Below are positions 93-62,659 of a stretch of 64,000 nucleotides of DNA, piece after piece. The stretch is from Mesaphorura yosii (lineage: Eukaryota; Arthropoda; Collembola; Poduromorpha; Tullbergiidae), in contig WIXG01000009.1 in NCBI GenBank assembly GCA_009869945.1, positions 372,001 through 436,000 of the forward strand, read 5' to 3'. Numbering within the stretch: position 1 is the stretch's first letter; each line of letters opens with the position of its first letter. The notes under the pieces were generated by a model that ran no database searches, was not told where the DNA came from, and saw only the letters and a list, made by a program, of their open reading frames with translations. Position numbers and translations under genes: made by a program.

Positions 93-3000
93 CAACGGTC
101 ATTGAAGGGCCAACTTTATGGAATAAACACTTAGTCATTCTTGGAAAAATGCGAATCATGGGATCCACACGATTGTGTTCATCCTCTTCTGAAAGACGTA
201 AGACCTCAAGTCCAAAGGTGAGGAACTCACCGTCGAAGAACTTGTCCATTAGGAACATCTGACCTGCAAAGGCAATCCAACAATTTGGGAATTTGCACCA
301 CTCTCGGCTAATTTTGCGTGCGTTCATCGTCCAATTTCCTTACCTACAACGTTTCCTAGCGCTAGCACTTCACAAAAGAAGTATCGGTACGCCCACCTGT
401 AACAAGAAGAGTTCTGTAATATTAAAACTGTAGTAAACTTAACATAATGACTGCGGACAGCAATAAATTTAGGTGCGGTGATGAACTGTAGAGAATTATT
501 CGAAGTTATGTCCATATATGATCATACAGCGTCGGCGGGCGCTGATTGGCTGAGGAACGCAATTGTTTGTTTGTTTGGTTGCGACCAAACAATTTCAATT
601 CAAATTGTTTATTATGCAAAATTGCTGGTGCGAAAGATCCTTCAAGTGAATTTCAGCATAAAATTGTCGTGAAAAGTACGTTTTGAGTGAATTCGTGTTT
701 AAAGTGGATCTTCGAAGTATTTTGGGTATTCTGGTTGTCAGCACAGCGTTGTACTGGTAGCCGAGTAGTCAAAGAAGAAATGACTAGTCACAAGGAAGCA
801 CTGAAGAGAGTATTCTCTGGTTTACTAGGAGGATAGAGTGACAGCAGTGAAGACGAAACCCAACCGAAGGAAGAAAGTTGTGCTGAAGAAATTCCTGCAG
901 GAAGTTCATGTCTTGGCTTCACTCACCAGTTGTGGTGCTTGAGATTTTCGTAGAGGTAATCAACTAAAAGCTTCTTTTTCTGCTTCTTCTCCATCTCTGG
1001 GCAGATTCCCACATCCAGGTCCATCATGAGGGCTTGGATCTTGCCACCTTCCCAGTTCTTCCAAAGCCAACGAGGAATGTAGAATAAAATTGCCTGAAAT
1101 AAGTGCGAGAATCCGATTCAATCAAGATAAAGTTGATGGTTGATGGCGCGAGAGCCAAGACAAGACAGGACGGGCGGCTGATTTACGAGGCTTCAACTCT
1201 CGCGCCATTAGACGCGAAAATGGATCTCTCTGAGTATCTGCAATCCCTAATTGCTCTAGATTAATCTAATTCTCCCTGGCAAAAGCTGGTCATTGTGTGC
1301 GAGATGAACCATTACTCCCATTTTTCTTGGAAGCAGGCAAATTACGATCAAATAAATAAAAACGTGCTGCGGACGAAAAGACAATAGCCAAGATGCAAGA
1401 TGCGAAATCACTCTCGCGACTCGCCGCGTTCGCTTTTTAGGGCCCGTGCCAAATTTTTCGACTCGACTTGAAATGGGAGTCGACACGAATTCTTTCGCAC
1501 TAAATTCGCAAACATCGGATTGAATACGTGTTCTGGTGCTTTATAACAGGAAATTTGCATGCTCAGTTAAAATTTAATGAAGTCGTGAATGTAAAACGAG
1601 TTCTATTAATGGGTTGGTATTAACGCAAAGGCAACAGATGAGTTGATGTTGCGAGGCGGCAGTTGATGTGATGCGGCTTCGGCTGTATGCAATCCATGTC
1701 AATCAACATTAATCGTTTTATCCACTTTTAATGTGCTTTGTCGGCCAAATCTACGAAAGTACTGCGAAAACCGAAAGCCACAGCCACCCGAGGGACCTTC
1801 ATTGTGAGTTCCATTCCTTCCTGGTCCTAACATTTGGCGGACGGTGTTGGTGTCACAAAAATGTTTGACAATTCCTTCGTGTAATGAAACGAAATCGGGC
1901 AAAATAAGAAAAATGACGCCTTAATGTATAATGGCCCATGTTGGCGTTCGAGTGAAGTGGAGTGGAGGAGAATGGGACCAGAAGGAATATAACTTAATCG
2001 AAGTCAAGCCAAAGTCAGCCAAAGCCAAGCTGAGTCTCTTCTTTTCTTCGCAGCAGTGATTTATAACTATTTACTTTTTCATTGACTCGTATCGCGAATC
2101 ACGAATCGCGAATCCAAAGAAATTCACTTAAGGCCTGTTGAAGTTGATGATGATTATTTCTGCCAAACTCCTTGCTTGAGCCGAGACAGCAAACAAAGCG
2201 AACAGCGAACAGGAAAAATTGTTTACAAATTGTGTGCGTGGTATTCAGCGGAAAGCTTAAGTAGTAATTGCCCCACTTTCGACTGAATCGAGTCGCGAAT
2301 AAGCTCCAGAGTAATTCATTCTCGTGCCGTGTCTTGCGTCGTCGTAATTGATGTTATTAAAATGTGAGCCAGCTCATGGAACGGCAGGGCACGACAAGGC
2401 GAAAATTGTGATCATTTTCGTAATGATTACGCCCAGAGCCAGACACAAAGAACAAACAGACACAAAGACTGATTGCCCGACGCATTCCTGGGCCGAATTC
2501 AAGTCCGACAGATTGAGATAAGAACGATGTGATGACTGCCTGATTGTCCGCCTGTCTGCCTGCTTCGAGAATTTGAATCATTTCTTCATGACGGAGAATT
2601 TGAAAACCGAGCCTTGCATTTTAACCGAGAAAATGAGCAAAAGGCGACAGAAGATTTACATTCATTTTCATTTGCTTTGCGTCTGCAATCAGGAAATGGC
2701 TGAGTACCGACAGAAAATCACGTCAGCCTGACGCAGAGAAGAAAGGCAAGTGGAGTCAAATACCAAAAAATTTGTGATAAGCGTACACAACGAACGCATG
2801 GTCGATCAGGAGGCAAGCCAAGCTCCGATGTCCTAATAATAAAACGCCAGCACACGGCAATGGTTGAATAGTTTAGTTTTGCAAATTGTTATTATTAAAA
2901 TAAATTCTGTGCAACGCGCGTGTATTCGCGAAGCAGGCAGACAGGCTGAAGCTCGGCATGGCACGGAACAGTAATGTTATGAATCAGAATCGAGCCGTCG

Positions 3001-4737
3001 TGGAGAAGAATATAAGAAAATCCATTGTGAATTGTGAAACGGGGCCCAGCCGATCTTGTATGAATGGAACGTTGCCAAAAGGTTAGCCAACTCTCATGAC
3101 CCATATGCGTCGTGCTTTATTTTGGTATTTTTGTCTGCCACGCTACGCGCAGGCCAACGCAGTGCACACTCGCCTTCGTACTCGTACTCGCGGGATCGGC
3201 GTGCCGTGCCGAGCGATGGCAGGAGGCAAGATAATAGACGAAGAATTAAATGTGTTAGTAGTGAAAAGTGAAATGGGAAGCTCCGTTCGAGCTTGGATGC
3301 TGAAGCTGATCGGACACAATCGAATTACTGCCTGCTTGCTTTGCCTTTGCAGAATTCCGTCTCATCGGACTCATGCTCGCCTTCATCATCAGAATAATGC
3401 TAAAGACCTCAATTTGGATGGTATTTAGTCTTCGCCTTTCGGATCGCAGGAATTCGTCATCAACCACCAACGCAATGCGATTAAGAATTCCGTCCCCATT
3501 CATCGAAACAGGAATCGGTATCTGAGCGGAGCATTGAACATTGAGCATGGATCCAGTTAATTAAGCGTTCTCAGTAGTCACAAGCATTGCGCATCGGCAT
3601 TGCAAGTACAAAACGGAGTCGGATGCTGTTCCGTGGCACGCGGCCATGTGCATTCGCAATGCCCTGCCGTTGCTTTCACTTTCAGTATAGACAAACCATA
3701 AATACCTCCACTGGCAGTGGCGTGGCGGCCATGCGCCATGTGTGCGCACGAGGCGCTCGCGTTTGGCGTTTGGCCTTTTCATTTCACTCCGTTCCGTAAA
3801 TTGTATATATAAACTCTCTCGCATCAGGTGTTCAACTCAGTTCGAAAGCATTGTACGTGGAATGGAACGGAAAGAGGCACACGGCACAGCTCTGATGGAT
3901 TTCGCTTTCGCGTGGTGTACTGACACGTAATTTTTAAGTAAACAAACTTTACCCTGAGCAGATGTAAGTTAACCTATATTATCAAGGTTAGCTGCAGAGT
4001 GCGAGAAACCACACAAATTAAATGCTGGATGAAATGCAACGTGTGTGGATGGCGAATAATTGACAATTCTTTCACCAGGAAATGAGTCTCGTTCTGTCTT
4101 GTCTTGCCTGGACTAGAAAATTCCTTGGGACTCGCGATTGGCGAATTCTGATTCGCATGAGCAAACTCCCTTTTTGTTTTTACATTTTCGGATTTTGGCA
4201 AACGACGTGGCAAGGCAGGCAAGAAATGGGCGAGTTAATCTCAAGAAATTTCGCGTTGGAATTTGGAAAATGTGTGTCGTACCTGAAAGAATAGACAAAA
4301 GCAGACCCACTGATAATATTTATACACTTTGAGCTCCGACTCGTCCCCGTGTCGATCCACTCCGAAGTGCGGCACCTAATCAGGGCGAAAGAGACGAAAT
4401 TAGGCGGGAGGGTGCAAACTTACCAATTCGACTTCGAATTTCCGGGTGACTCGTCTTTCCACGTTCGACTTACGTCTTTGCCGACTTTCTTGAGGAAGGA
4501 CGACCTGACGAGATATGTGTGCATGATCCAGCAGTACGTATTGAGAACATCTTCTGGAATATCCTTCGTGTGGATGCAGTCGATGGGGTTGCCCACGTAT
4601 TGCCGCGTCGTCACGATGAGAGAGAAGGCGAGGAGAATCATCACCGTGAGACTGTAGTGCAGGCGAAATATCGTCGAATCAATTCGCACATGGCTGACTT
4701 TCACCAAATTCTTCAGACCACGAAAAATGTCCAACAT
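93..4737 (-). CDS. shakB: shaking-B-type innexin (partial, C-terminal part beyond left edge)
   Basis: This gene encodes a gap-junction channel subunit, an integral membrane protein of cell contacts. Exons in order of transcription are 4737-4474, 4375-4283, 1093-927, 396-344 and 263-93; all join in frame with GT-AG sites and give the first 249 residues. The start [15 protein letters not shown] and the stretch [24 protein letters not shown] match the insect ShakB neural form as I recall it. The first extracellular loop has cysteines 54 and 69; the innexin signature YYQWV is at 108-112; KNWEGGK, HNWWAYRYF and [14 protein letters not shown] follow. The last visible exon ends after the second-loop motif FPRMTKC with donor GTAAGT at 92, so the fourth membrane span and tail lie outside the window. 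An in-frame ATG at 4878 is rejected because family members start at MLDIFRG. Exon 1 could use a donor at 4423, but only 4473 keeps the frame. Confidence 0.93.
1094..4282 (-). other. large intron of the shakB-type gene
   Basis: This 3.2 kb intron separates the exon ending in CFCLFFQ from the exon starting AILFYIP. No coding exon on the minus strand is seen in it. It carries an antisense core promoter near 3804-3839 (listed separately). In insects shakB is known for alternative first exons, so an intron this size could hold another promoter, but I see no second innexin start here. Confidence 0.6.
3804..3839 (+). promoter_or_regulatory. TATA box plus arthropod initiator, antisense in shakB intron
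   Basis: TATATATAAA at 3804-3813 is followed by TCAGTT with its A at 3839. Counting that A as +1 places TATAAA at -31 to -26, the spacing known for arthropod TATA/Inr promoters. A consensus donor, AGAT then GTAAGT, lies at 3964, so a first exon of about 125 nt (3839-3963) is possible. It contains only a 22-codon ORF (3862-3930). No gene on the plus strand is recognised before the inx7-like gene at 15072, which is one possible target. Confidence 0.5.
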
Positions 4738-6949
4738 TTTTAAGGATTTGTCGCTACATGGTACACGAGCGAGCAAATATTTACACGACCGGCGAGAAGA
4801 AGAGCAGAAACAGAGCGAAAATGAGAAAATGATGACTGTCGGACTCTTTGACCACGTGCACGAAACTCGGCGGCTCACTGCTCCACATTTTTACTGACAA
4901 AATTTTAAGACCCACGACTGGTGAATTGGCGAATCGGCGAATTAGCAAGGTAGATTACGTAAGGCAGTTGAGGTTGCGTTGCACTTGGTCCACTTTCTGA
5001 TTATGCGATACGTTTGCGATACTCAAATCAAGGCAGCAGAATCAAAGGCAGTTGAACAAGACTAAAGTTATCAATGAGCAAATACTTTCTTCGGTCTGTA
5101 ACTTATGTTTGAACACATCGTTTGAATTTCTTGGAAAGTGAAAACGACTTCAACCTTTCGGCGCTCCTGCGCTGACTCACTCATCCATTCTCGTGAAACG
5201 CGTACGCGCTCCTGCTCGTTAGCTCCATTTTCACAGCCACGCGGACACAGACGTCAAATCAACAGATCCACCACACACCGTCACCAGCCAAGCCAAGCCA
5301 CCAGCAGAGCAGCAGACCGACACGCGCTTGTTCCTGTTTTGAAGACTTTTCTCACTCTAAACTACGACTATGATAATTTTTTGCAACTGCTCCTGAATCT
5401 TCTTTTCCGTCTTGGTACATGTTCCGGGAGTTTTTTATAGTTTGGTTACTCTGACTGTGCCAGTGCCAGTGCTCATCTTTAGAATTTGGGTTGTGAGGTA
5501 TTGTACTTGTATTTAGTTTTGGGAGGTGGGACGTACGCGAATCATTACATCAGACAACTCAGACTCCGAGTTCGGTGCCTGGCTTCTGATAGAGGCAATG
5601 AGTAACAGTAACTAGTTACTAGCAAGTAAATAGGATGTATTACGTCTAAGAAAACGGGCATCATCTCATCATTAGTATTTTCTTCTTGTTTCTCGTTTCT
5701 CGGGACTTTACACCTCCTTAAATCTCTGCCGCACGCACGACTGTGCCTCGCCTCGCTTGCAGCACAGAATAAATGCTGAGGCGGGCGGCGGACGACTATG
5801 ATTACGGCAATTTATGCTCCTCATTCCCGAATAAATCTGGTGAAAGATTTGCGATTGGCGATAACGATAAAATACTTCTTTTTATTAGCAAGTACTCAAG
5901 TTCAGAATGTATATGCACGTGCACGTCTAAAATGTAATCAAACAAAGCACAAATCAGTGAAGGAACAAACGTAGGCTAAACTAAAGACATCAAGTTAATG
6001 AACATCAGCATTCAATTTATTGCCTTAAAATTCCATTCCATGTCACACATAAAACAAGTTAACTAACTTATACAATAAAATAAGTTGCTGTTGCTGGTGA
6101 AAGTGAGCAAAGCTTAGGCTTAGTTATTATTGTAACAATGAACTCGATAAATGCAGCTAGCTCAGCGTACAGCGCTAATCTTATCAACAGAATGTACAAC
6201 AATCCCGACTTAGGCTTTGGCTTCTGTCATATCATAAATAATCTGTCGTAGACTTGTTTGAGTTGAGTTTCATTATTGCAAATTGCAATTGCATTAAGAA
6301 CATGAGCATAAATACGTACAAGTTGGCAGAGCTATAATTAACTAGACTATGCAGAATAATGCAGAATTGTGCGTGTCTGACAAATGCTAAATGCATAGAA
6401 TTCAAAGAATTCAAGCTTTCCGCTTCAATTAATTACCCTTTTTATCCAGGCCTCCTCGCTGTCGCTACGCTAGTCTTAATTAATATTGCTAATGCTCTGA
6501 TACACAATTTACGTATCCTTTTCCAAGATAAATGATAAGTGAATCTATTTGAACAGGTTATTGTCTCCAAAGTCTTTCAAGTTTCATTTTCTGCTTCAGA
6601 ATCTTTCGTTCCGTATCGAAAGAGATTCGCCATTCGCAAATCGCTTGCGTGTAAGATCCTAATTTCCAACTCGGCCTTATAAAAATAGTTCGTCATCACT
6701 AAAACGTCTCGTTATCATAAAAGATATGGTCAATCTGAATGGATTCAACTAATTGCAAGAGGAAGACAAAGACAACTTTCAATTTCTTGGACCCTTTCGC
6801 CCGGGCAGCTTGCAATCAGCAATCTGAGTATCAATTATTGCAGAAGTAAACTTAAATACGGTCGTCGGTCGCGGAACCATGTGCTTAGTTTAGTTTAGAT
6901 GCTGCCTTAAAGTAGAGTAGTTAAAATAAACAATCAGCTGACGTCCGCG
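4738..6949. other. intergenic, shakB 5' flank and ogre 3' flank
   Basis: This 2.2 kb between the shakB start and the ogre stop holds no supportable gene. It should contain the shakB promoter and leader and the 3' UTR of ogre. ORFs here are short and lack coding character. Confidence 0.6.
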
Positions 6950-8959
6950 TTACGCCAGTTTAGGGTTGTTTGATATTACTGTGTCGTTTTTCTTCGCAAA
7001 CTCTCCTATCACGTCCCTGTAAATCTGCGGGTCGATGTTCCGCCCAAGCATGTAAAGGAGCCACCAATCTGAAATTGAATACAGACGAAGGATAAAGAAG
7101 CCGGCCAAAGGGTGACAAAAGATGGGTTAGGGCTAGATGGGCCTTACCTCCTACGGACAGCTTTCTCGAGACTGACTCGACGGCATCTTCGGGCACCATC
7201 CGATTGCGAGCGTGCATGAGGCGTGGTCGCAGTCTTGGGCACAGGATGACCGTGATTCTGAACACAAGCACGATTCCGCAGAGGAAGGCCATGATGATGA
7301 ACCAGAACCAGAGGAAGATGTATGTCTTCTCATTCACAATGTTGAGGGGCAGAATACAAATGGCGTCGTGAGTCTCGATTGTTGACGAGGGACCGAATCT
7401 GAGGGAAAAGACAAAGGAATTAAAGGTTATGAATTTGAGTCGATATGTCTCGCAAATGCTAATAAAAGCTAGTCGCTAGAAGGAAATGAATGAGTCTCGT
7501 TCAGGTTTGGCGAATGTACGAGCTTGCGCTCTGAAAGCGTGGGCAGTACGGCGCTACGCGCAAGAGTCCGAAAAACCATGTTTCGGTCTCAGTTTGAAGT
7601 GGAACGAGAAAGGGAGCAGTAATTCTCATATTCTTATCAGTTTAGGTTCTCTAATGCCAGGAACGTTAAATTCAACAGATTTGAGTACTCAATTTTTAGT
7701 TCTGACGCAGATTGCCATTGCCATCCAGGTCACACTTACTTTCTGAACGTGCACTTGGTGACTCGTGGAAAGACATAATTCATGTGATCGTATCTCGCTT
7801 CCTGGTCAATATCATCCAGCGTGAACATTACGTTGAGTCCGTACTTGTGGAAGTCGCCGTCAAAGAACCAATCCATGACAAACATCTGGAAGATGATGTT
7901 CACGAAGCAGAGGGCCTCGCAGAACCAGTAACGAAAGGCGTACGTGTTGTGTTGCTATAAAATGAGGAAGAAATTGACGTCAATCACCTGCATTGCACCT
8001 TCCACGCCACGCTGCATCTAAAGAGCATGGATGGAGCAGACCAGGCGAATTAAGGCGTGACGTGCCGAGTCGAAGGAACTTACGTTCATGTGTTTAATTA
8101 AATACTCAATCAGTATCGACTTCTTCTGGTTTTTTTCCTCTTCTGATCTCAACCCAATGTTAAGGCCGCAGACAATCGTTTTCATCAGACTGTGCTCCCA
8201 AGACTCCCATAGCCACTTGGGGAAGTAGCACATGATTGCCTGGAAGAAGAGTACGAAGCACACCCACTGATAGTACGTGTAGTGCTTCTCCTGATTGGGG
8301 TCGTTGAAATTGTTGGCAACACCAGGATGGGCCACACTCCCGTACGGGCGCTTGAAGGCATCTGCGGATACCCGAAAAGCAACCCATCAGCATCGATCGA
8401 CATAGCACCAACCTAGATTCTCCTTCTGCGCTGTACACTGGCAACAGACTAGCGCTCGAATTCAAGATTCGTCAACTCGTGGAACTTACCTGGCATCGTG
8501 AAAGTTGTCATAATCCAGCTGTGGATTAAATAAGAATATTTATTTAGTTATTCTGGATATTATATATTATCTACTAAATATTAGGAATAAATAATAGTAT
8601 CAGGTATAAATATTGTAATATAAATATAAAGTTATGAGCAATGGACTGTAATTCTGCTGTAATTCACATTACAGCAAAATTAATTAATTAATTATTAGAA
8701 TACGATTATTATTAAGATAATATACGTATACACGTATATATAATTAATATACGTACCAGTACGTATTCACGACATGCTGCGGCACTCCGTCGACAATACA
8801 TCGAATTGGCTGACCCACAAATTGCGTCCATGTGATGATCATAGAGAACGTGATCAAGAGGACCGTCGTGAACGTACAGTGAATACGGAAGATTGGATTG
8901 TCGACGATGATCTCCTGGCGCTTGAAGTAGTCCTTGAGTCCCGAGAGTAAATTAAACAT
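6950..8959 (-). CDS. ogre: innexin 1 / ogre-type innexin
   Basis: This is a complete innexin of 364 residues, a four-pass gap-junction subunit. Exons are 8959-8757, 8518-8490, 8361-8084, 7954-7740, 7398-7148 and 7068-6950, all GT-AG and in frame. The second exon is only 29 nt and encodes WIMTTFTMP. First-loop cysteines are 54 and 68; [12 protein letters not shown] is at 107-118; the second loop has VFPRVTKCTF and [13 protein letters not shown]; the C-terminal hallmark DWWLLYMLGRNIDP is present. Residues such as QFVGQPI, VDGVPQHVVNTYCW and AHPGVANNF resemble Drosophila Ogre (innexin 1) most closely. Length agrees with the family (about 360). It lies on the same strand as shakB, 2.2 kb upstream of that gene's start, and diverges from the inx7-like gene. 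Confidence 0.95.
8519..8756 (-). other. very AT-rich first intron of the ogre gene
   Basis: The intron between coding exons 1 and 2 is almost pure A/T over 8520-8750, with repeated TTAATTAAT and TATA-like runs. The flanking exons are mixed composition. I see no gene or repeat family in it. Confidence 0.7.
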
Positions 8960-11900
8960 TTTGGAGCTGTTGGTTGGATCGACGTCCGGATGAACACAAT
9001 TAAGAGGTTAAAAATTAAAATTAAAAGCTGGAAAAGCTCTTAAAAATCGACCATGCACGGATTCACAGATTTTCACTGCTGGAAAATCGAGGCAAGGGAC
9101 AAACCCACGGAGAATGCAACAATCAGATCGGATTAAGTCACTACGCGCTGCAATAATGAGACTCAAAAGTGGGCGAAGGCAAAAGACTATTGCGTTGAAG
9201 AGATTTAGTCAGAGTCAGATTCCGTCGTCGTCGTCGATCTTCGTGCGTAACTCGCGCAGTACAACTAAAAATTCCAGTTAAGGAAAGGAGTTCATCTCTT
9301 AACTCAATATTCTTGTGCCTTGTTATAAAGGTTTAGGGTAGAAGCCAGTTAAGGCACGACTGGCTCGATGGCTGTGCTGCTGCTGCTGTGGGGAAAATGT
9401 AACCTAACTCTTAACCATTGTACTATTGTCATTCTTCCCTCTTCCACATTCTAGTCTAGCATTAAGCATTTAAGCTTTCAGGCATCTCTAGCAGTCGCAG
9501 AAACAACAAACCCCTCGCTGGCCGAGGCTTCAGTGTTGTCAGATTCAACTGCCAGTGCTTCTGCGGTTACTTGCATTGTGTACTTTAAATGAAATTCACC
9601 CCCTTGCTCAAAATGCGCCTTTACCATAGCCGTAGCCGTAGACGTCTGACGCAGCTAAGCATACAACTTCATAGCTTAGCGAAGTATACAGCAAATGAAG
9701 AAGAAACTGGGTTCGGGATTTCGAATTCTTTTCCTCCCTTATACAGACAACTCAAAGGCAAAAGCAAAAGAAATGTAAAGAAAAACGAAGCTAAGTTAAG
9801 GCCGAGTCGAATTTTACTATCGTTCAAATCGTTCACATGCCACATGCCTAAGTCAAGTCTAGGTTTAAGCTAACTAGCATCTATGTATTGGTATAATCAC
9901 TATCATACCATCACCATCACCGCATTCAACAAGTTGATCGTCGTCACCATCGCATGCATGCTTTGAAGAAGAAACGCAAACGCATGAAGCACGCAGCTCG
10001 GGGAATCTCAGCCAAGCAAGAGGCGCGGCAGCAGCAACAATAAGCTGAGGCTTCATTTCATCCATTGTTGGAGAAATTAAAACCTCCCGAGTCTTATGAC
10101 TGAGACTGTGACTGCGACTTCCTTCGGGCAATCCGCATAACTTATCTGTTTCGTGGTGCGTTCTACGCGTTGTTGCGTTATTGCGTGCTGCGTGGAGGAA
10201 AGCCGAGATTTTTCCCATGAAAGCAAGACGCAACAACTTTGCATTGTTGCAGCATGCCGGCCAAGCGACTACGCACTCTTCGTCGGTTCTCCGCTAAATA
10301 AAGCTAATCTAAGCCAAGCCACTGCAGCCACCGCCTTGCTTGCCTTGCAGTCTACCTCGATAAAATACAAACAATAAACGAACGGAAATGTTAACGAGCA
10401 ATGCAGTTACCTTCGCTGCGCTGCGTAATGGAGTAATGTGACAGCGGATTCACAGATTCGCATTACAGGTCATTCCCTTCGCACTTTTCGCACCGCGTGA
10501 AGTTAGCATACGTTGCGTTTTGCGACTGCGTATTTTGAATCACGGAAGCTAGATCCTCCCAACGCAGGTGAATTGGCAACTGAGTTTGGCCGATTCTCAG
10601 CTTGGTCACACACAGCCATTTTGCTTTGCTTTACTATTTGCTTCACTTCGTGATTATAATCATCAATCCACTCTACTGCTAATCGCTTCGCGATCGAGTG
10701 CATAGTTAATTAGATCGCGATCGGTTGTTGCTCTCATCTCTCGTCGAGTTAGCACAGGTATAGTGTAGTAGTTTTGGCCCACGAATCACGAATCGCGTGA
10801 ATGAAGCGAAAAGCACTTGAGTGAATCTCTTCAGAAGACATTGAACTTTATTTTGAGCTTTACTGCTTTCTGTTTCTTCTAAAAATACAACCAATTTCAG
10901 ATTTTGAACATTCTCTCGGCCCATTTCGATTAATTTCTTCATAAGCCAATGTCTAGTCAAGGCAATGCTTCTTGTCAACCTTGCTGGCTTTTTTTTATTG
11001 TTAACGCAGACGCGTTAAATGCAATTGCAAATGCGACTACAATCCACGCCAGTGAGTCAGGCGACATCCTAAATATTGTTCCATGCGCGTTCCGTGCGCT
11101 TCCATGCTTCGCCATGGCTGGCCGTCATATCAGGAAAATAACATGCTGACGAATTTCCTGCCACTGCGCAAGGCACATGGGCTGCATATACGCACGCGTC
11201 AAGTCCATAAAACGCCTGTTAAAGCAGTAAACATTGCTTTGCCTTGTCACTTGCCACGTTGTTGTTTGCTGTCACACTTTCTGAAGCTAGGCAGACAGGG
11301 CGCTGAAGCTGCTGCGTTAGAAGATAACCACAGAAGGATATGCAAGTTGATGTGAACGTTCTTAAATTAGTCAGCAACGAGTACAAAAGAAATGGCAGAC
11401 GTGAGTAATTTGTTTACTGCTGCTGCACTGAACCGCAGTCAGTTAAGTCTGCATGCGTTCGCTTTGCTTCACTAAATTAATTTTAATAACTACTAATTTA
11501 GTTGCAATTCCGGTGGTTAAAGGATGTTGCCCCGTGCAGAGAATCTGGAGCAAATTGCAAGGCTGTGTTTGCGCTTACGCTGGAATTGAAAATCTTTTAT
11601 TTTGCCGAAGCGTTTTAGGAAATGAGTATAAAAAATCGAAACGGCGCAGCACGGCATTTCCAGATGCAATTTCGTATTTATTTTGAGACTGTGACTCGCA
11701 TCCTTCGAACTTTGAACCAACTTTATTTTGCAAATGAGACGTTTTGTTTTACGTGACTGAGGTCAAGTTCCATAAAATCATAAGTTTACGAGTTTGCAAG
11801 GAAATAGAAAAACTCGTAAACATAAACAGCATGTTGGTTGAAAGTCACGTTTTCCATTGAACGTTGAACTTTGCACTTTTTTCATCACAAAAGTGCAATA

Positions 11901-14900
11901 ATGCAAAAGTGTAAATACACAACAAAGCAATGCAATTTCGTCATCTCAGTGTACTGCTTTCGACTCTGGCTTTGGCCCGGTAACGCGAACGGAGAAAGCC
12001 AGAGTGAATAAATGTCACGTCGCCTGCGTGTGCTCCACCCTTTGAAAGAGTATTACCGTCTTGCCGTATTTTTACCCTTCTTCCAAATAGAGCCGAATAT
12101 TTTTGAACAAGGCTTCATCATTTCTTACAAGATTACAAACTCAGCGAGTCAAGTTTGACAGCAAAATGATGCACCGAGCCTCAGCAAGCCGTTGTTGGTT
12201 TGGACTGCTTGGACGTATTTTCATGAAACACGCTCATGGATCTTGTTTTCATGCACATTCTTCACACGATCACTCTCCCTTCATAGAGCGAATGCCGAGC
12301 CTTTGCTTAGCCTGGAACGCAAGGGGATACAAAAGATAAATGACTCCAACAAACAAGCACAGCAAAATTCGGCAGGCAAGAAATATTTATCCGAAACATT
12401 TGGAGTTTTAGAGAAAAGAAACAAGAAAGATTTTCAGAACGCGACCCAGACGTCAAACCAGGACAAAAATAGGTTTTTGGACCAGGCTAAGATGAAGGGA
12501 AAGATTGCTAGATTGCTGCTTAGCTTGGATTTTTCCATTTCAGCCCGTGTTCTCAGAAGTGTACGAAGAAAATTCTCCGTGTGAGTTCTGCCTGCCAGTC
12601 CGAGCTTCCAGCAGCTTTCAGTCCAGAATTCAGCATCCAGCGGTCATGGTCAGATGTCAAACATTTTCAGGCACGGCACAGCGCATTTGTTTACTTAATA
12701 TTTGTGGAAAGGGCTGGGCAAAGCAAGGAATGAAGTCAAAAATTGCAATTGTACGTATCCATTCTCCATTTTCAGCGTCAAGCGACAGCAGCAGCAATAG
12801 CAATAAATCTCACGGTCGCGCGCCAGCCAGCGCCTGTGCCTCTTTTCTTTCGAGCTTACATGGTACGGGGATGGCTGATTTAGCACGGGCATGCTCAAAT
12901 CTGGTTTGAAACTAAATTATTCATGAGGTCAATTAAATTAACATAACGAGGCTGGCTGGCTGGCTGGCTGCATCTGTAATTTTTTACTGGTCGAGTGTGA
13001 ACGACGAGTCCAAACTCCAAATCCAAGTCTTGTTGTCAGACGCGAGTGACAGCTTACAAGTAACAAGAAATCTTTTCAATTTACGATCGTACGCCGGAGT
13101 TCTCTCAGTTGTGTCGTCAAGGTACAAGTGCTTGTACAAAATGCTAAATTATATGCTAAAATGCCATCCAATTTGCAAATTGGTTGAATGCAAATGCAGA
13201 GGTGTTAGAAAAATAGCACGTTAGTAAATTGCAAGAGCTGAATGTCGAGTAAGATCATTTGCGACATAAGGAAGCGGGAATCCTTCAAGAGGATTTAAAG
13301 ATTATTCTAGTTCAATTATGTGATCTTGAAATTGCATAATTCTTCTTGCTTTCTTTGTCCTACTGTTCTGTCCGCTATGTCATGGAAGGTCATTTGAAAC
13401 CAAAAAACAAAGTCTATTTTTATGGGGCTCATCGTTCGTCGTTGGATGATAAATTATTTACGTGGTCAGCAAGAGTCGTGTGATGTACCATATGGCTACG
13501 CTACGCTATTCATTTGGCTTGGCCTGGCCTTTGATCTCTCTTGTCATATTATCACCAACCAAGCACGGGACAAGCACAGCAGGGCTGACGGCTGAGATTG
13601 ACCGTATTTGGATTGTTGGAATTAATATTAATGAGTGACTGTTCACGATGACTAGTGACGGTGACTCTGACGGCGGAATCCTCCTTGAAGACGAAGCTGC
13701 TTTCAAAAATTCCTTCACAGGATGGTTTGTGGACTGGACTTGACTGAATACGCTGTTCTAAACAGATTAAGCGATGACCTCATCGTAATCGCGGCCCTCG
13801 GCAGAACACCAGCTCTACGACTTGCGACTCCGTACCGTGCCCTGCCAGTGTATAGCAGCGATGAAAATAAGGTCAAATACAAGCATAAATCATAACACAT
13901 GCTTGAGCTGGATAAATTCTAAATTCTTTGCCGCCGCAGCAGTTCTAATTATACGTTCCACTCGAGTATATCCGATTATGTAACCGAAAAGATGAAATAA
14001 TGATTTAATCGCCACGCCAGGCCTGGCATGGCCTGATGAATTATTGCTGGAGCGGAGCGAGAAACGCAATGTGACGCAAAGGCAAAGAAATTCAATTCCA
14101 GTCCAAGGCTGAGGCTGTGGCCGGCCGTAATTCATGCCTACAATCCACAATTTAGGTGTTGGGCAATTCGTCATTGCGTTGCCACCGTTCTGCTACCTTT
14201 TTTGTACGACTACTCCCTCACCAGCAATAGAAAGAACAACCGCAGTTTGTAGTTTTAATCAAGCACATGGATGCGCCAAGCCAAATGCTAATATGTACTC
14301 AAAACAGACTCAGACGCAGACGCGAGCGTGGACTGAACTCGCCTCACAGCTCACAAGGACGAATCTTATTGTTCTCTTTTTAATAGGTTACACAACTGTT
14401 CCATTATAAATTGGCATGGAGAGAGAGACGTGAATGCAAAAAAATGCAAATGTGCGAATGTGAGAGTGCGCGTACGCGAGAACGCGTACAGGCACTTGGG
14501 ACTGATTGAGTGCTGAACAATTTTGCATTCATCATTCAGGGTCTATTCTTGGCGTATTATGCTTCGTCCTTATTTGGTTCTATTTAAAGAGGCTGAAATT
14601 AATAGTCATTTGCTATTATCGAAGCAGGTTCATTAATTACGCTGTGCAATACAATGAACACTGCAGTCGTAATGCTGAACTCAAGTTAATTTCACCCAAT
14701 TTGGGCGTTGAGAGACTGAAAGCAAATTCTAACCGTCAGATTTACGCGTCTACGTCTGATTTTAACCTGCGCTTGAATGTTTCATGCATTTTACCGTTGC
14801 AGTCAGGAAAATGCAGAATATTTATAATGAATCATTAAACAGTACAGAAATGAAAACAAAATCACGATCGCAGACGCAATTCTCATCAGTTTTGTTGACT

Positions 14901-15071
14901 TATGAAATGATGCGATGACAGATTGAAACCGTTCACACACCAAAAAACAGAAAACGCTGTTAATTAATTAATATTTTCGTCCACGTTATCAGTTCTGATC
15001 TTGCCCGGTTCCTGCTCGATTGTAAATCAAAAAATTGTCTTTGATTGCGGTGAAACGACGCGAAATTCAAA
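8960..15071. other. intergenic region between divergent ogre and inx7-like genes
   Basis: This 6.1 kb holds no supportable coding exon. It must contain the promoters of two divergent innexin genes. It has many short GC-rich words (GGCAAGGC, TGCC repeats) and a (GGCT)5 run at 12950-12970. ORFs over 100 codons at 12192-12909 overlap one another in different frames and show no domain or codon pattern of a real protein. Confidence 0.6.
12950..12970. repeat. (GGCT)5 microsatellite
   Basis: Five uninterrupted copies of GGCT lie between ogre and the inx7-like gene. Similar short runs of TGCC/GGCA recur through the window. Confidence 0.9.
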
Positions 15072-16692
15072 ATGTCGGCCATCTACGGCTCAATCGCGAC
15101 AATTCTCAAGCCTTTCGTTCTGTCCAAGAAGGCTGCCAAAATCCGGATTGAAGAGTGGACATTTCGCCTTCACTTCCGGCTGACGACCGCCATTCTGCTG
15201 ACTTTCTCAGCGCTGCTCTGCATGAAAGAATATCTCGGAAACAACATCACGTGTGCTCCGACACACGACGACGAGTCGAACGACCCGGTTGTTCCTCGCA
15301 AGACAATCGAGAAGTATTGCTTCATACAAACAACGTTCACAGTAAGATGTTTTTGCTTTCCTCTTGTCTGTGCCTCTGATAATTGATCTTAATTCTACGT
15401 TTGTCCAGGTTCCATGGGATTACCAAGCGCACAGTCTGCGCAATTACTACGAGGACAGGCAGCTGGGTGGTCCGCCGTACATTCCCGATGAGTCGGCGCA
15501 AGTGCATCACGCCTACTACCAATGGGTGTCATTCTTCCTCTTCTTTCAGGCTCTCACGTTTTACGCACCGCACGTGATTTGGAAATCCTTTGAGAATAAT
15601 CGAATCCGAAAGTTGGTCATTGGAATAAGTGTAAGTTATTTCGCGCATAATGAGAATTTCAATAAATTTCTCAAGCGCGGAAGCAAAACGAAATCGCAGC
15701 CGCAAGATTAAAGTAAACAATTCCGTAATTATTTTCCACTTGCAATTGTGCCATAAAAAGTAAATTAAAGCGAGGAAAGCTGCAAACCGAAAAGAAATGA
15801 CCGCAAGAAAACGTGAATTGGTTCACTACTCAATATTTTGCATATTGCGGCTTGAGTTTTCGAACTTTTCAGTCAACAATCGCTAATGGCTAATTAGATT
15901 GTGTGTGTTTTGGCTTTATCCTTTCTTTCTCAAGTGTCAAACTCTCTCTTTTGTTTTTGACTCTTTTTTCGTCTCAGGCGCGTGATCTGACCGTTGAGCC
16001 AGAAAAGAGGAAATCCACAATCACGTCGGTGGCCTCGTACATTCTGCAAGCGAAGGGCACTCTTGGGTTTTGGACTTTCGTCTACGTCGCCTGTGAATTC
16101 CTCAACTTGCTCTTTGTCCTGCTCAACGTCTACGTGACAGACTTATTTTTAGGCGCCTTTTCGACGTACGGGCTCAAAGTTCTTGCGTACATGGACCAAG
16201 ACTCGGAACTCCGCACCGATCCACTCGCGACCGTCTTTCCAAAAATGACAAAATGCATTTTTCATTTGTTTGGACCTTCCGGGAACGTCATGCGGTTTGA
16301 TGCTCTTTGTATCATGCCCCTGAATATTCTGAACGAAAAGATATTCGTATTCTTGTATTTCTGGTACGTGCTCAGGCTCAGACCCTTCAACATTTCGGCG
16401 GGCCAGCGCCCAGCCCAGCCTTGATATTCAATGCACGTGCGTATTTTGCAGGTACATCATACTGACCGTCATTTCCATCTACGCCGTCGTTCGCCGAATT
16501 GCCACGCTTCTGTCCGCGAAATTTCGGCTCTCCGAACTCCAAATTCGAGTTTACTCAATCAAAACTCGGGCGATGACGGTCCTTCATAAAGTGGGCGTTG
16601 GCGAGTGGCTTCTCCTGCATTTCCTGCGTATCAACTTGGACCACGGATCATTCTACTCCATAATTGAAGAAATGTACCAAGAGCTAAAGTAG
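15072..16692 (+). CDS. inx7-like divergent innexin
   Basis: This is a complete innexin of 372 residues. Exons are 15072-15341, 15409-15630, 15978-16363 and 16452-16692, all GT-AG and in frame. First-loop cysteines are at 61 and 83, a gap of 21 residues against 14 in its inx2 neighbour, with an acidic insert (HDDESND). AYYQWVSFFLFFQALTFY is at 125-142. The second loop has VFPKMTKCIF and CIMPLNILNEKI. The C-terminal motif is GEWLLLHFLRINLD in place of the usual DWFxLYxLGxNxDP; the FLRxNL form recalls insect innexin 7, as does YCFIQTTFT. The cytoplasmic tail is very short, ending EMYQELK. It is the only plus-strand innexin here. Innexin identity is certain; the inx7 assignment is an inference from motifs. 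Confidence 0.9.
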
Positions 16693-19600
16693 ACGTAGAA
16701 GTAGATTAAATTCATTCATTTATTTCATTCATTGGCTTGGATTGATTAAATTCACAAGTTCCCAGCGCGTCTCAAATTTCGTGCCTGTATCTTCCATACT
16801 TCATTAAATCTGTTATTGCTTTGCTTGAAATTACATTGTAATTATTGACGTTAATCTTCCAGAACGAATTACAATTACAAAAGTTCACTTGTTCTTAACT
16901 TCTTAATAGTAAACATCAGGACATAAACATAAAAACATGCATGCAATAAGCATTGGCAGAGGATTACAACTTGTAAGAGGAGGAAGAACAATGCAAAAAA
17001 TTGAACGCGTTCGTTTCTGTGCTGCACTGAGCCTGCAAAAAAAAAACTCCATTACGCATTATGAGCAATACAGCAGTATAATGATGGCTTGAGATCTCAA
17101 TTCCAAGCACAAAATTCACGAGAATATGACGTACGTGCAATAAAGTCAAGAGTTAGTCATACTTTCTTGTTGTTGATGATTAGCTTCGACGCGATGAGGA
17201 GCAATAATACAGGTAAGTGCTGATGCTGATGCAGTAATGAGATGCAATGAAACCGGTGCAATTCATTCATCGGGAATCGTTTATGACGTGACTCAAAATA
17301 AACACGAACGCGCACGCATTGTGTGCAAATTGCTTGCATATCTGAATTCAGATTAAGATTAACTCATTCCCGCATATGACACAATCAAAGTAATATGCAA
17401 ATCGCGACGCGACAGAGTTTAAAAATTAATGCGTGGCTGCGAATTACGACCCGCAAAGCAAAGTAGGTTTACTACCACTGCCTCTGGCACACTGACTTGA
17501 CTGCTCCTGCGTTGACTGTTTAAGCAGGCGCAGGTGGTATTTTCCCAACGTTTCAGCTTCGCTTTGCACAAAAAACCACAGGAATCACGAGATTGCAATT
17601 CCATTCCACGAGAGTGTAAGGCGAATCATTGCTCTCTTAATTAAGCAAAGTTCCTTGCGTCAAGTTCCTAATTCCTAACCCGCCTAAGAACTAAACTTAC
17701 TCACGGTCCAAGAATTTATCAGCAGGCTGTGTTGAAATCTCTCCACCACAGCTCTTGAAAATATCTTTAAATGCATTGCTTTGCTTTTGCTTAACAAAAG
17801 ATGCGACTCGCACTCCTCGCGGAGAGCACTTGCTTGATACACCCACAAATTAAATATTGACGAGCATTGCCGCAGTCGCAGTGTGTTTTAGAGACGAGAC
17901 AAGAGTGTTGACAAATACTCGCCTTCGCCTATCGCCTTCTTCCGTTTCATCTAACTACAACTTTGGTCATTATGCACACAAATCCAAGCTTGCTTTCAGT
18001 GATTGAATTTCTTGTTTACTCTTTAGGCATGTGATAATGATAAGGCCACGAAGCCACGATAAGCCGATGAAGGTTCCAGTCTGCATTTCAGCACCTATTT
18101 TCTGGATGCTGAAATGTACTTGACAAATCTTGCCAATTGCGATTGTTGGTAGCAAACAGTTCCTAAACAAAGCGGATATTTCTACAGGTTCAAATACAAC
18201 AGTAGTTTAAGTTATTTTGGGTGCGTGACTGATAACGATAACAGTGCCCTTTGAACGTTGCATGTGGCAATGACGCAGTCGCAGTCACTCTGTTTGAAGG
18301 AATCGTACGTAATCGGAGGACAACGATAAAGGGCGCTGCTTCATTTCCAAGGAATCTGTTGGAAGGCTCGCTCATGTGTCATGTGGAGAAATTCCATTCA
18401 GGTTCCTGTCATGATGAAATACACTCAGACTCCTGACAGACAAGCTGCATGGATGCATGAAGGCATGCGTAAATATTAATTATTGACTGGGGTTCGTTCG
18501 TGGGAGTGCGATTCTTGCTAAATGCAAACCAGGAAATGTGCATTCCGTAATTAAAATGATGAATCCACGTGCAGCATTGCAGCATTGGCAAACGGAAAAT
18601 CACCTCGACTCGAGTGTGAATGACATTGAGCACGTCGAATGATGCAATTCACACCTGCTCAACTTTGGATTTTTCAATGTGCAATCCGCTAATCAGGTGA
18701 TTGGTGATTTACATTCTCAGAATCAAAATCAAATTCCGCGATGACGACGTGACGCGACTCGACCATGAATCAAAAGTGATCGAATGAAATGACACGAAGC
18801 AGACTCGAATTCCAATCAAGTCTTAGCAATAATTGAGACATATGAAGATTGATACTGAACAGATCGAGCTTCGTGAAATGAAGTCTAATCTCAGAGACTC
18901 AGGCTCGAAAAACATCTCGGTAGTTATAAATGCAAAAGTATTATTTCATGGCATGATTTAAAACAACCAAATGAATGAATTAGCATACGTGAGGTATGAA
19001 GCATGTGACTGATTTGAAATACTACGACCAAATGACGTCAGTTTGGAAATTATACCTGCTAATTGCCAAATGAGGTAAAAATACATTAACAAGCAGGTAG
19101 CATAGCGGTAGTAGGCACTCTGAGGCTTGGATGCTTTGCTAGGCTCGGCCAAGTCCGGCGAGAAGGCAAAATCAATGCTGGTGCTAATTTGGTGTAAATC
19201 AAAATCATTTTACGCTTGTAATGCACGATGCATCAGATCAAATGCTTACGTGAAGGCTTGCCACTTGAGACTGCATCAGAATTCTGTATTCTGTCTAGAG
19301 TGCAGCCGGCACTCAGCAGTTTCGCACTTTTTGAGATAAGAATCCACATTTTTGATGAAATCACAGTTCGCAGTCGAGTAATTTAAATGGCAATTTTAGG
19401 TTAGTTGTCAATTTGAGCTATGGAGTTCGAATTAAAGCTCAATGAAAGTGCTCTAGACGAACCCAACGTTCTAGCGTTTGCTGATAAGAAAAAGATAACT
19501 GCTTAATTCAGCCAGCGAGACTCGACTCCAGCCGACTATTTCACACTTCAAAATTTCACAGACCGCAATCCATTGATACGTATGCAAATTGCGATGCATT

Positions 19601-20854
19601 TATGTATTCGAAGCTTACTGGAACTTTAAACATGGCTTTAAAGTCAAGTGGTCTAGTGACACAGTTCCATGTAGCTGCAGTTAATACGCGATATCACTGT
19701 GTCTCAGGCCAGGGTCACCACAATCATTCAATATCCAAACCCTAAGCAGAGCAGGGCAGGACAGAATCGTCAATCGTGGCATTTTAGCATTTTAACGATT
19801 TTATTTTAATTCAGTCGCAGTCAGCAGCATGATAAAGTTAATAGCACTGATATGGCGAAATCCATCCAGCCGCCATGTTCGCGTGCTCTCGTTCCTCAAT
19901 GCGAAAGACTCATCCAGTTGAATTAAATCTCAATTTATTTCATGCAACATGAACAGTATACACATTTTTATTTCTTCATGGCAAATCTGAGTACAAATGA
20001 CAAATGAGTTCTAGCTTGCAACTGTACCATGAACGAAAACGTAAAGAACACATAACAATTCCATATAAGGCTAATAGCAATCATCAGCATATCATTAAGA
20101 TAATTTCATATAATTACTCATTACATCACTACGCAAATATAAACAGAACACTGCAGGTTTTCAAAAATAGTGTTTTACACCCGAAATTGGAAAATGGCAA
20201 TTGTCTTTAAAGTCTTTAGAGTGCAGAAAATAGAAATGGAATGGATTGAGGAGGCACTTGAAATGGTCCGAACGGAAAGGAATGACAGGCCAGTCTGTGG
20301 TCTTCAACTTCTTGAAAGTTTAAGGCACGAATGTAATTTCTGGAAATGGTCAAGTAGCTGCAGTCTGGTTCTTTGGTCCTGAGTGAGCCTAAATTATATT
20401 CTCAGAAAATTGAGCATAGTTAAGTCCCTTCTAAATGGTCCCTCTCAGCAAGCGAAGCATGCATTGCATCGTTCATCGTCCTCAGCTTAACCACAAAATT
20501 AATGAACCCGATGATTGAGGAGGCTGTCGAATGTCAAGATTAATCCTAACTTTTGGCTGCCATTTTATTGAGGTCAAACTTAGGCTAGATTAGGACTCAA
20601 GCGGAAACGTTAACACTAAAATTGTAATTGCAATGCCGCAGAGCAAATGGGCGTATTACGATTTAACTACGCTAAAACTAAAATAAATGCAAATGCTTGG
20701 CTTTGCCTTGCCTGCTTGCTAGTATTGCTTTTCGCACGAAAAACATAAATAAGATTATTAACATGTGTGCAGTTTGACAATTGAGTTTTGAAGCCCATTC
20801 TTCTTTTCGCTCGCGCAAATTGCGTACCTGCTACGTTTAACAAGGAGAGACGGG
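16693..20854. other. intergenic region between convergent inx7-like and inx2 genes
   Basis: This 4.2 kb separates two convergent genes and should hold both 3' UTRs. ATTAAA near 16705 is a possible variant poly(A) signal for the inx7-like gene. I see no gene, RNA or mobile element; all ORFs are short. Confidence 0.6.
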
Positions 20855-23800
20855 TTATACTGTGTCTCGACCTTCCAGCCGTCTTGCCAAATCACTAATG
20901 AGCTCTCTGTATATTAGCGGGTCCATGTTCTTGCCCAGCTGGTAGAGTACGAACCAATCTCCAATCTGACATTTCTGTGATATGCTGTCAACTTGCTGCG
21001 GGTCAGAAAGCCTCGATTTTGATCTGAGTAAGTACATCCGGACTTGAGGAAGGAAAATTGTGAATAGTCTGTACACAAGAGCGACTCCAGAAATTGCAGA
21101 CACGATAATGAACCAGAACCTGTGGAGTGGAACGGAAAAGCTCTAATTATCGACGGCCAGTTCGAAATGAAGATGCGCACGCGTATGGCGGACATTTGGC
21201 AAATTAAACCCGTTCCGCTCTAGATGATTAAGAAAATGAACAAGACTGAAATAGGAATCTTACCACAAGAAAACGTAGATCTTCTCGTTGACAATGTTCA
21301 GTGGCAGAACACAAAGCCCATCGTAGTTCACAATATTCCCGGAAGGTCCGTATTTATTGAATGTGCATTTTGTCACTTTCGGGAACACTGTGTAAGCATA
21401 AGAAATATAAAAATATATAAGCTACGGCAATTTTTTTTCGTCTCAAGTCAAGCCTGTTAAAAATTTTGAGTGATGAAGAATTCAAATTCATCGTAACTAG
21501 AAGCGAGAGTGCACCGAGAATAATTTTTCTTCAATTAGTGTTGTTCTGTAAACAGGACACAGTGTACGAGAAGTTTTCATTTCTCGAAATTAGTAGCAAC
21601 AGCATTAATTTTACTTCCTTTCTGAATTCACAGTGCTGATTGTACATCTTAAATGCGACAATGGATGCTTTTGACAAGGTGAGGAAGATAAATATTCTTT
21701 GTAAATTAAGCTGAAGTAGTTTTAAGGGAATCCTGTTTTAGGGTCACAAAATACCGAAGGCAGGTGTTCACTTCGTGGAGACATTGTCAAGAAGGTTCAA
21801 GTGCAAAAATTGTCGTTATGTGGTGGACATAGTTCTTTCAAAGACAAGGGGGAAGGCAAGAAATTCAATCAAAGCTCACTGGGAAAAGTGTAACCCGATC
21901 TTGCGTCAGGCAGCCAGTGCTCGATCTCTGGAGTCAAGGACGAAGAAGCCGGCGAAGTATAGAAACATTAGAAATAAAAGTTGGGCGAAACGCAAGAATG
22001 AAATTGAATTGAAAGTGAGACCAGAACATCAGGAGCTGAATTGAATTAAATGAATTTAGCTTAAGCAATTCTGGTTCCAGTTGATTAGTGCTTGCCATAA
22101 AACCGTAATGAAGTCATTAGCAAGACCATAATGGGTTATCTTGAATAAGAAAGTAGAAGCTTCAAATGCCCACAAGTTGTTAAGACTAAAGGATGTACAT
22201 GCTGCCTGTACACTTGCCAAACGAAATCATGAATTGATGTGCGTGGAAAAGAACTCCACGAAAGCCCATAACACTTTGAACAGACGCTTCTTTGGCCTAT
22301 TTCACTGCAAGTAGGAAGATATTAAACTGCTTGATGTTGACAGCATCGAAGAAGACGAGCTATCAGGTACGGAATTGGATTAATCACATGTGCTCCGTAA
22401 TGCAACTATTCTTAATGCAAACTACAAACTAGGCTTAATACATGTAATTCAATGTTCAATGTTTCCTGGTTATGATTCCTGTTAACTTAATGTACTAAAA
22501 TAAAAGGGAACTCACCTTTCGCCATCGGATCAACTCTTGTGTACGGGTCTTGTTCGGTGAAAGCCAACACTTCGCTTCCGTAAGTTGTGAACTCGTAACC
22601 CAAGAACATGTCCATGAAGAAGATTTGACCCACAACGTTTATAAAGTTCAACACTTCACAAAGGAAGAACCGAAACGCGTAAAAGTTGTGATTCTTGATG
22701 TTTGAGATGAAGTAGTCAAGAATGAGCTTCTTTCTGCTACATTTGTTGTCTTCATCAACGATTGGACATGTAAGGTCCATAACCAGCATCTTTATCCTGC
22801 CACCTTCCCAAGTTTTCCACAAATATCGCGGGATGTAGAAGAGCATCGCTTGGAAGAAGAGCACGAAGCAAACCCACTGGTAGTATTTGTGATACTTGAC
22901 TTTATCTGTCTTACTCTTCAACCCAATCACACCAGGATGAGGAACGACGGAGCCTAGTTTAAAGATAAGGAATGGTGTGTTAAGTGTTAATAATTTCGGC
23001 AAGCAAAGATAACAGAATCCGAATCCAAGAAAAGCAAGTGCCTCGCCCATCTCCCTTGCCCCAGATAATTTGAGTTTAAAATTTAATGACTCTTACCGAT
23101 TTTTTCTCCGTACTTGTCTGGAACGGTGTAAGTGGAGTGAATCCAGCAGTATGTGTCCATGATGTCTCCTCCGATAGAATTATCCACTATGCAGTCGATA
23201 GGGTCACCTAAGATCAAGTTCCATCGTTAATATGCAACCATATGATCAGCTCGACGATTGAAAGCAACGCACAAAATCTGATGCAATCTTAGACATTGAC
23301 ATTAGCCATCACCAATGACTTTGGATGACATCTGGAAACTATGCTCTGAGATGGGAAACCGGAAGAATGCTCGAAACGCAATTCAGCACATCTCCAAGCA
23401 TGTATGCAATAAGAGTCGCTACGCCAGCGTCCATTAAGCTTTCTAGATAATTCGAACTATTCTTTTGCTTTATACGATGCGAACCTCCAATTCCCGAACG
23501 CAGTTCAAACTGTGTCTTTCCTGGTAAAGTGTCAGAAGCGCAAGTGCAGAGAAAGTTAGCTAGCTAGTGATGTAAAAGATGAATCTACCAACAACTACAT
23601 ACAGACAGTGCCAACTTGTGAACTGCATAACTACCAATTCATTGCTAAACTGCTCAATATAAGCCAAATCGACTAGGAATATCTCTCAACTCTTAAGGTG
23701 TCTATTTTAACAACTAGTTCTAGTTAGCAACTGTAGTTAGTACAATTAAATAAAATAGACTTACCGATATATTGTCTGGAGGTGACAAGAAGTGAAAAGG

Positions 23801-23909
23801 CGACCAAAATGATGACCGACACCTTGTAATGGAGTCGAAAGACATTGTTGTCGATGCACACACTGTCGAGTTTGAGCAGTTGCTTAACTGAACCGAATAC
23901 ATCAAACAT
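20855..23909 (-). CDS. inx2: innexin 2
   Basis: This is a complete innexin of 360 residues, a gap-junction channel subunit. Exons are 23909-23765, 23207-23097, 22953-22516, 21387-21264 and 21119-20855, all GT-AG and in frame. The start [20 protein letters not shown], then SRQYIG and DPIDCIVD, is close to Drosophila Innexin 2. Loop-1 cysteines are 54 and 69; [14 protein letters not shown] is at 107-120; [27 protein letters not shown] and [11 protein letters not shown] follow; loop 2 has [10 protein letters not shown] and [17 protein letters not shown]; the tail contains [20 protein letters not shown]. Length fits the family. The intron 21388-22515 carries an antisense candidate gene. Confidence 0.96.
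21661..22314 (+). CDS. small BED-finger-like protein nested antisense in inx2 intron (candidate)
   Basis: I do not recognise this gene by name. A three-exon model (21661-21678, 21742-22014, 22150-22314) gives 151 residues. The first exon encodes MDAFDK, followed by GTGAGG and an acceptor TTTTAG. Exon 2 reads [19 protein letters not shown] and then a zinc-binding pattern C-x2-C-x21-H-x3-C (KCKNC ... AHWEKC), the arrangement of BED-type fingers found in hAT-transposase-derived proteins. A very basic stretch follows. Exon 3, by a weaker acceptor, encodes [17 protein letters not shown] and ends FHCK at a TAG (22312-22314). The frame stays open for 22 more codons after that stop, with an acidic tail. 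If exon 2 is not spliced out at 22014 the protein ends at 22044 with 106 residues. The gene may be a domesticated transposase fragment; exon 3 is the least certain part. Confidence 0.45.
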
Positions 23910-24480
23910 TTTGGCAGTATTTGATGTTCAAATTGGCCACGAAAATAAAGATAAGTTACTTAATTAGTTAAATGCACTTCACTGATGCTGAACAGTTGAA
24001 TTCACTTCCGAGCAGTCCTTCGGAATCGCAGCGGGAGCGGAGTTTTCAACCAGTAACGGAATTATTCTGATCCAATTTCGTAATAATCTTGTCAGTTAAC
24101 TAATTCACGTCCCAAATTATTAAACTACAAAGTTCGTTTTACTGAACACCATTGTCGCGTAGCGTTGCAACTTTGACTTGTACGTGTAGAGACGTTTATT
24201 CTGAACTAAACACTAACTGCATTAAAAGCTGGAGATGGAATTTGGATCGTCGTCATTCGCTAAGGGTTGGTCTGGTCTTGGTGTTGGTTTCTCCCCACGG
24301 ACGAGGATGCTGTACGTTGTACTTTGTTGCCGATTCTCTTTTAACAGGCTTTATAACTTGTGCACGGGCGAGTGCTGACGGAGATGAGTTTCACCCCCTC
24401 GCCAAAAATGGGGTTTGGCCTGCCAGCACCAGCAATGGGAAGCAGTTACAGTACAGTAACTAAGCGGTAGACTCGTAGAC

Positions 24481-24501
24481 TGAATACTGAATACTGAATA
24501 C
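24481..24501. repeat. TGAATAC x3 tandem repeat
   Basis: Three perfect copies of a 7-base unit occur in the region upstream of inx2. Confidence 0.85.
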
Positions 24502-27500: not shown

Positions 27501-27771
27501 CATTTACAAGTTATGAATCGAGGACTCAACGTCCGCAATCGGACGGCAGGAGAGCGTACGCAATAATTCAGGATATTCGGGGAAGCACTTTATTATTGGC
27601 TTGGATTGCGCATTGCGAAGCGATTAGTTCAAAGTGCCGTGCCGTCGTTTGATTGCTGGGTTCATATTTCATATTTCAATTCAGGTACCTGGATTCTCTT
27701 TCGCTTTTGCTCCTTTCTCCGTTCTCCATTCAAACTTTAGAATAATATTTCCTTGAGTGAGTCGCGTAGTT

Positions 27772-27797
27772 GAGTCGAGTCGAGTCGAGTTGAGTTG
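27772..27797. repeat. GAGTC/GAGTT short tandem repeat
   Basis: Five-base units GAGTC (three copies) followed by GAGTT (two copies) form a small imperfect microsatellite in the gene-poor stretch. Confidence 0.8.

Positions 27798-29115: not shown

Positions 29116-30444
<1,329 letters not shown>

Positions 30445-37793: not shown

Positions 37794-42226
<4,433 letters not shown>

Positions 42227-55569: not shown

Positions 55570-62659
<7,090 letters not shown>

Follow-up and report, generated by a model that had tools for sequence, protein, structure and literature searches.

A cluster of four innexin genes in a springtail genome, with shakB and ogre orthologues and an inx2-type gene, as a probable old tandem array

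In Drosophila, shakB serves the electrical synapses of the giant-fibre system and lies elsewhere on the X chromosome than ogre and inx2, both of which are needed in glia. The fly genes inx2, inx1 (ogre) and inx7 sit next to one another at 6E4 (PMC8580445), and the innexins of the fly were described in two small clusters on the X chromosome, for which an origin by local duplication was proposed (PMC6193117). Ranz et al. 2022 count an Innexin cluster among the ancestral developmental clusters, three of its four contiguities being kept in Danaus plexippus and one of the four in D. melanogaster (PMC8767184). Among the titles and abstract openings that were covered, with few subscription papers, no published description of shakB beside ogre and inx2 was found. 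Here we describe such a group in the springtail Mesaphorura yosii. The window, which means the whole stretch of 64,000 nucleotides that was analysed, is C9:372001-436000 of a genome of 93.0 Mb in 1127 contigs.

Layout of the innexin group

The genes were found from matches of the Pfam Innexin family (PF00876), taken exon by exon, and their models were obtained by spliced alignment in which only GT-AG introns were accepted and stops were penalised, the terminal stops being read from the sequence. The matches on C9 resolve into four genes, all with open models, within about 24.4 kb and in the orientation - - + - (Table 1). These data are in agreement with the sequence-only reading made earlier of the same DNA, which had announced four innexin genes in about 24 kb, with gene 3 as the sole inverted member. 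The cut-off of PF00876 is passed by exon matches of all four genes, and for gene 3 also in a separate search. Two cysteines in each extracellular loop are the rule in innexins, and the four proteins all carry the four loop cysteines together with the YYQWV motif, so that the hallmark motifs reported before are indeed present in each of them. YYQWV at TM2 is an innexin signature (PMC5096308).

Table 1. Positions of the four innexin genes, numbered along the window (negative numbers are left of its first base)
Feature	Position	Strand	Assignment	Basis or remark
Gene 1	4737 to about -507	-	assigned shakB orthologue, eight exons	spliced alignment and stop
Gene 1, exons inside the window	4737-4474, 4375-4283, 1093-927, 396-344, 263-93	-		
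Gene 1, sixth exon	23 to -117	-		split by the window edge
Gene 1, last two exons	-196..-335, -448..-507			left of the window
Gene 2	8959-6950	-	assigned ogre (inx1) orthologue, six exons	spliced alignment and stop
Gene 3	15072-16692	+	divergent innexin, four exons in the chosen model	spliced alignment, Pfam match
Gene 4	23909-20855	-	inx2-type gene, five exons	spliced alignment and stop

The left gene of the cluster had been given a limit at position 93; the gene itself is real, whereas this limit is only the edge of the fifth exon of gene 1, whose end is found about 507 bases beyond the left edge of the window. An intron of 3,189 nt (window 1094-4282) interrupts gene 1 between FCLFFQ and AILFY, near the end of TM2. 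The isoforms of fly shakB become identical near the end of TM2 (PMC5412853), and tblastn searches of the 3.2-kb intron and of the upstream region gave no alternative 5' exons of shakB. For gene 3, three guides led to three different borders of the cytoplasmic-loop exon, and the model chosen is the one in which RDLT follows the border, as in the innexin gene of C81.

When C9:354101-436000 was searched by tblastn with 20 innexin proteins (E 0.01), no fifth innexin was detected. Between the genes, Pfam domains were looked for at 9.1-14.0 kb and at 16.75-20.65 kb and none was recognised; a positive control around gene 3 came up in two of three frames. The scanned flanks are also poor in recognised domains, with none in C9:364001-371502 and a single zinc finger in window 24100-33701. 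Repeats of at least 40 nt that would mark the inversion of gene 3 were absent, except for one pair: genes 3 and 4 resemble each other along 127 nt (72%) of conserved coding sequence. No intron position is shared among the four genes, a point that counts against the tandem-array reading given below.

Several other features of the window were recorded. To the right of the cluster, a RasGEF domain is located at 50295-50870 (+) and C2H2 zinc-finger stretches at 38319-39401 (+) and 29543-29611 (-), and HR1 repeats with a protein kinase domain at 56186-62291 (-) belong to a likely PKN gene.

Orthology of the four genes and other innexins of the genome

The springtail proteins were compared by global identity with five Drosophila innexins, whose sequences were typed in and not drawn from a database record, and trees of 20, 18, 13 and 9 rows were computed. 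The 18-row tree was made without the genes of C181 and C203, which have very long branches, the 13- and 9-row sets were chosen, and a decayed gene on C353 was included in none. Relative to these typed fly sequences, gene 1 reaches 69% identity with ShakB, gene 2 reaches 62% with Ogre and gene 4 reaches 68% with Inx2, compared with at most 51% for the three genes against the remaining fly proteins (41-49% in the case of gene 4). Gene 1 with fly ShakB and gene 2 with fly Ogre form sister pairs at 100/99 each in the three larger trees, and at 100/99 and 100/100, respectively, with 9 rows. As judged from these sequences, gene 1 is the shakB orthologue and gene 2 the ogre orthologue, and the earlier claim that shakB, ogre and an inx2-type gene adjoin is borne out. 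The shakB and ogre pairs tend in turn to group as sisters (85/73, 89/88, 94/92 and 84/91, none of them a starred branch), as would be expected of neighbours that arose by tandem duplication.

The position of gene 4 is more dependent on the set of rows. Its nearest row was fly Inx2 in the trees where nearest rows were listed, and the pair of both is found at 83/87 with 9 rows and stays acceptable with 18 rows (p 0.159). With 13 rows, an exclusive pair of gene 4 and fly Inx2 is rejected (p 0.013), and the innexin of C215 joins gene 4 at 92/92. C215 and gene 4 have two intron positions in common, one of which is also present in four further innexins of the genome, and these shared positions suggest that C215 may be a later inx2 copy that left the cluster. 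We propose that gene 4 is probably an inx2 orthologue in a one-to-many relationship, in which later copies of gene 4 may include C215 and perhaps further inx2-type genes. Another two inx2-type innexins are found about 4 kb apart at C430:16638-22105 (L011) and are mutual sisters (96/93, 97/91). Among the PDB matches of a gene 4 fragment, the sole innexin was C. elegans INX-6. In public viral contigs, the same fragment gave 10 pattern stretches and no relatives, and the YYQWV pattern had no matches either there or in public genome contigs.

Gene 3 shows 34-39% identity to each of the five fly innexins, Inx7 being at the top by one point. In the spliced alignments, the score was highest with Inx2 (588), followed by Inx3 (578) and ShakB (571), and was lowest with Inx7 (458). 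Its sister is the innexin of C81, at 100/98, 100/98 and 96/95 with 20, 18 and 13 rows, the last value being flagged as a meeting of two long branches, and both genes have introns at alignment columns 191 and 354 in the same phase. Both the 18-row set (p 0.020) and the 13-row set (p 0.034) reject a pair of gene 3 and fly Inx7 alone, and a pair of gene 3 and fly Inx3 alone is a borderline case, narrowly rejected by the AU test with 18 rows (p 0.048). Once C81 is added, neither the grouping with Inx7 (p 0.346) nor that with Inx3 (p 0.319) is rejected. The former appears at 72/88 in the free tree of 13 rows; the latter, with 13 rows, exceeds the free tree by 1.20 log units (p 0.55). In the 20-row tree, Inx7 stands beside gene 3, C81, C85 and C249 at 78/80. 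Since the identities to all fly innexins are in the same low range and, with C81, the inx7 and inx3 groupings both fit, the name inx7 given to gene 3 by the sequence-only reading is kept only as a candidate. The gene is best described as a divergent innexin of uncertain orthology whose sister lies dispersed, on C81, and for which an inx7-like identity is one of at least two possible readings, kinship with inx3 being another.

Over the whole genome, at least 50 Pfam matches, counted by exon, correspond in our grouping to at least 16 innexin genes: the four of the window, two on C430, and ten that each lie alone on a further contig, the decayed one of C353 among them. The 12 innexins found away from the window are thus spread over 11 other contigs, and only the window's four exceed a group of two. 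The decayed innexin of C353 (L016, C353:26637-27504) has internal stops and, on visual inspection, resembles that of C138. Besides the innexins, Hemocyanin_M matches were seen on 14 contigs of the genome, the best being on C68, C487 and C553. The PDB kin of two of these matches are mixed, with prophenoloxidases and hemocyanins in the lower rows of both. The top rows of one hold 'TK receptor' entries and a hemocyanin chain, which we take to be scorpion-type; the other has AGAP004976-PA at the top, along with these 'TK receptor' entries. An arginine kinase exon had as its top PDB row 4wo8, a taurocyamine kinase of two domains (247 bits overall, 124 for the best domain), followed by the shrimp entry 4bg4 with 202 bits, the horseshoe crab entry 1m15 with 184 and the Daphnia entry 6ky2 with 178. 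Searches for COX1 and for an 18S pattern gave no match, and neither did one for 7tm_6, which had no positive control. By themselves, these markers fit an arthropod that may be a crustacean and is perhaps no winged insect.

The proposed old array and alternative explanations

The family, the open models, the order and orientation of the four genes and the exclusion of a recent single origin are established directly. Taken together with the phylogenetic data, they make it likely that the cluster is an old tandem array that predates the split from flies and consists of shakB, ogre, inx2 (probably one-to-many) and the divergent gene 3. Local duplication would have built a tandem innexin array before the lineages of springtails and flies separated, its members would still be close together in the springtail, and shakB would have moved out of it in the lineage leading to flies. 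Like other innexins, the four proteins are predicted to form gap-junction channels or hemichannels. From this one genome, the gene order observed is plausible as the ancestral one, and the idea fits because ogre and inx2 adjoin in flies too and because an ancestral innexin cluster is already in print (PMC8767184).

A more extensive proposal would be that the complete ancestral arthropod innexin array is kept here, with gene 3 as a co-orthologue of inx7 beside shakB, ogre and inx2, that putative shared regulatory DNA binds it, and that the exit of shakB broke it in flies. We regard this proposal as unlikely; if it were true, the sets of innexins expressed together in non-insect arthropods would be predictable from gene order. 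Its regulatory part, in which putative shared regulation holds the cluster together and the subunits of mixed channels are co-expressed, also appears doubtful when taken as an explanation by itself. The study of Holcroft et al. 2013 reportedly deals, by its title, with ogre and inx2 in fly glia. The action of both genes in glia (PMC8580445) would fit shared regulation, as would the few domains recognised in the scanned flanks. In the fly antenna, however, shakB occurs in sensory neurons only, ogre broadly in non-neuronal cells and inx2 mainly in glia (PMC11424723), a split that speaks against one common expression domain, and mere inertia is allowed by Ranz et al. 2022 as a cause of such clusters (PMC8767184).

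A secondary gathering, in which shakB joined an ogre-inx2 pair by a chance rearrangement in the springtail lineage and the arrangement is not ancestral, is quite improbable. It could draw on the fact that one genome only is considered and that the dispersal of the 12 further innexins over 11 other contigs shows that the family does move. Against it, none of 200,000 random draws, with 15 genes placed on 93 Mb, brought four of them into 24.4 kb; the sister tendency of shakB and ogre, although on no starred branch, and the published ancestral cluster (PMC8767184) argue in the same direction. An origin of the four by recent tandem copying of one innexin within this lineage, as the adjacency of four genes of one family and the conserved coding stretch common to genes 3 and 4 could suggest, is practically dismissed, since a clade of all four genes is rejected (AU test, p 2.6e-5), an outcome opposite to the one by which the earlier reading would have been refuted, and since genes 1, 2 and 4 each resemble a different fly protein.

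Comparison with known innexin clusters

If the linkage seen here is ancestral, shakB, ogre and inx2 originated as neighbours, and the fly arrangement, with shakB apart, is the derived one. Position as well as sequence would then help to name the innexins of other arthropods, and the existing knowledge of innexin function would be unchanged by the cluster.

The ogre-inx2-inx7 group of Drosophila (X, 6E4) resembles the springtail group in that ogre and inx2 are close to each other and are accompanied by a third innexin. In contrast with the fly group, the one described here includes shakB, and its gene 3 is of uncertain orthology. The cluster of Ranz et al. 2022, compared here by its contiguity counts, is likewise an old innexin group, better kept in a butterfly than in Drosophila. 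The springtail cluster is a well-kept case of a known kind, the decay in flies of an ancestral innexin cluster having already been published.
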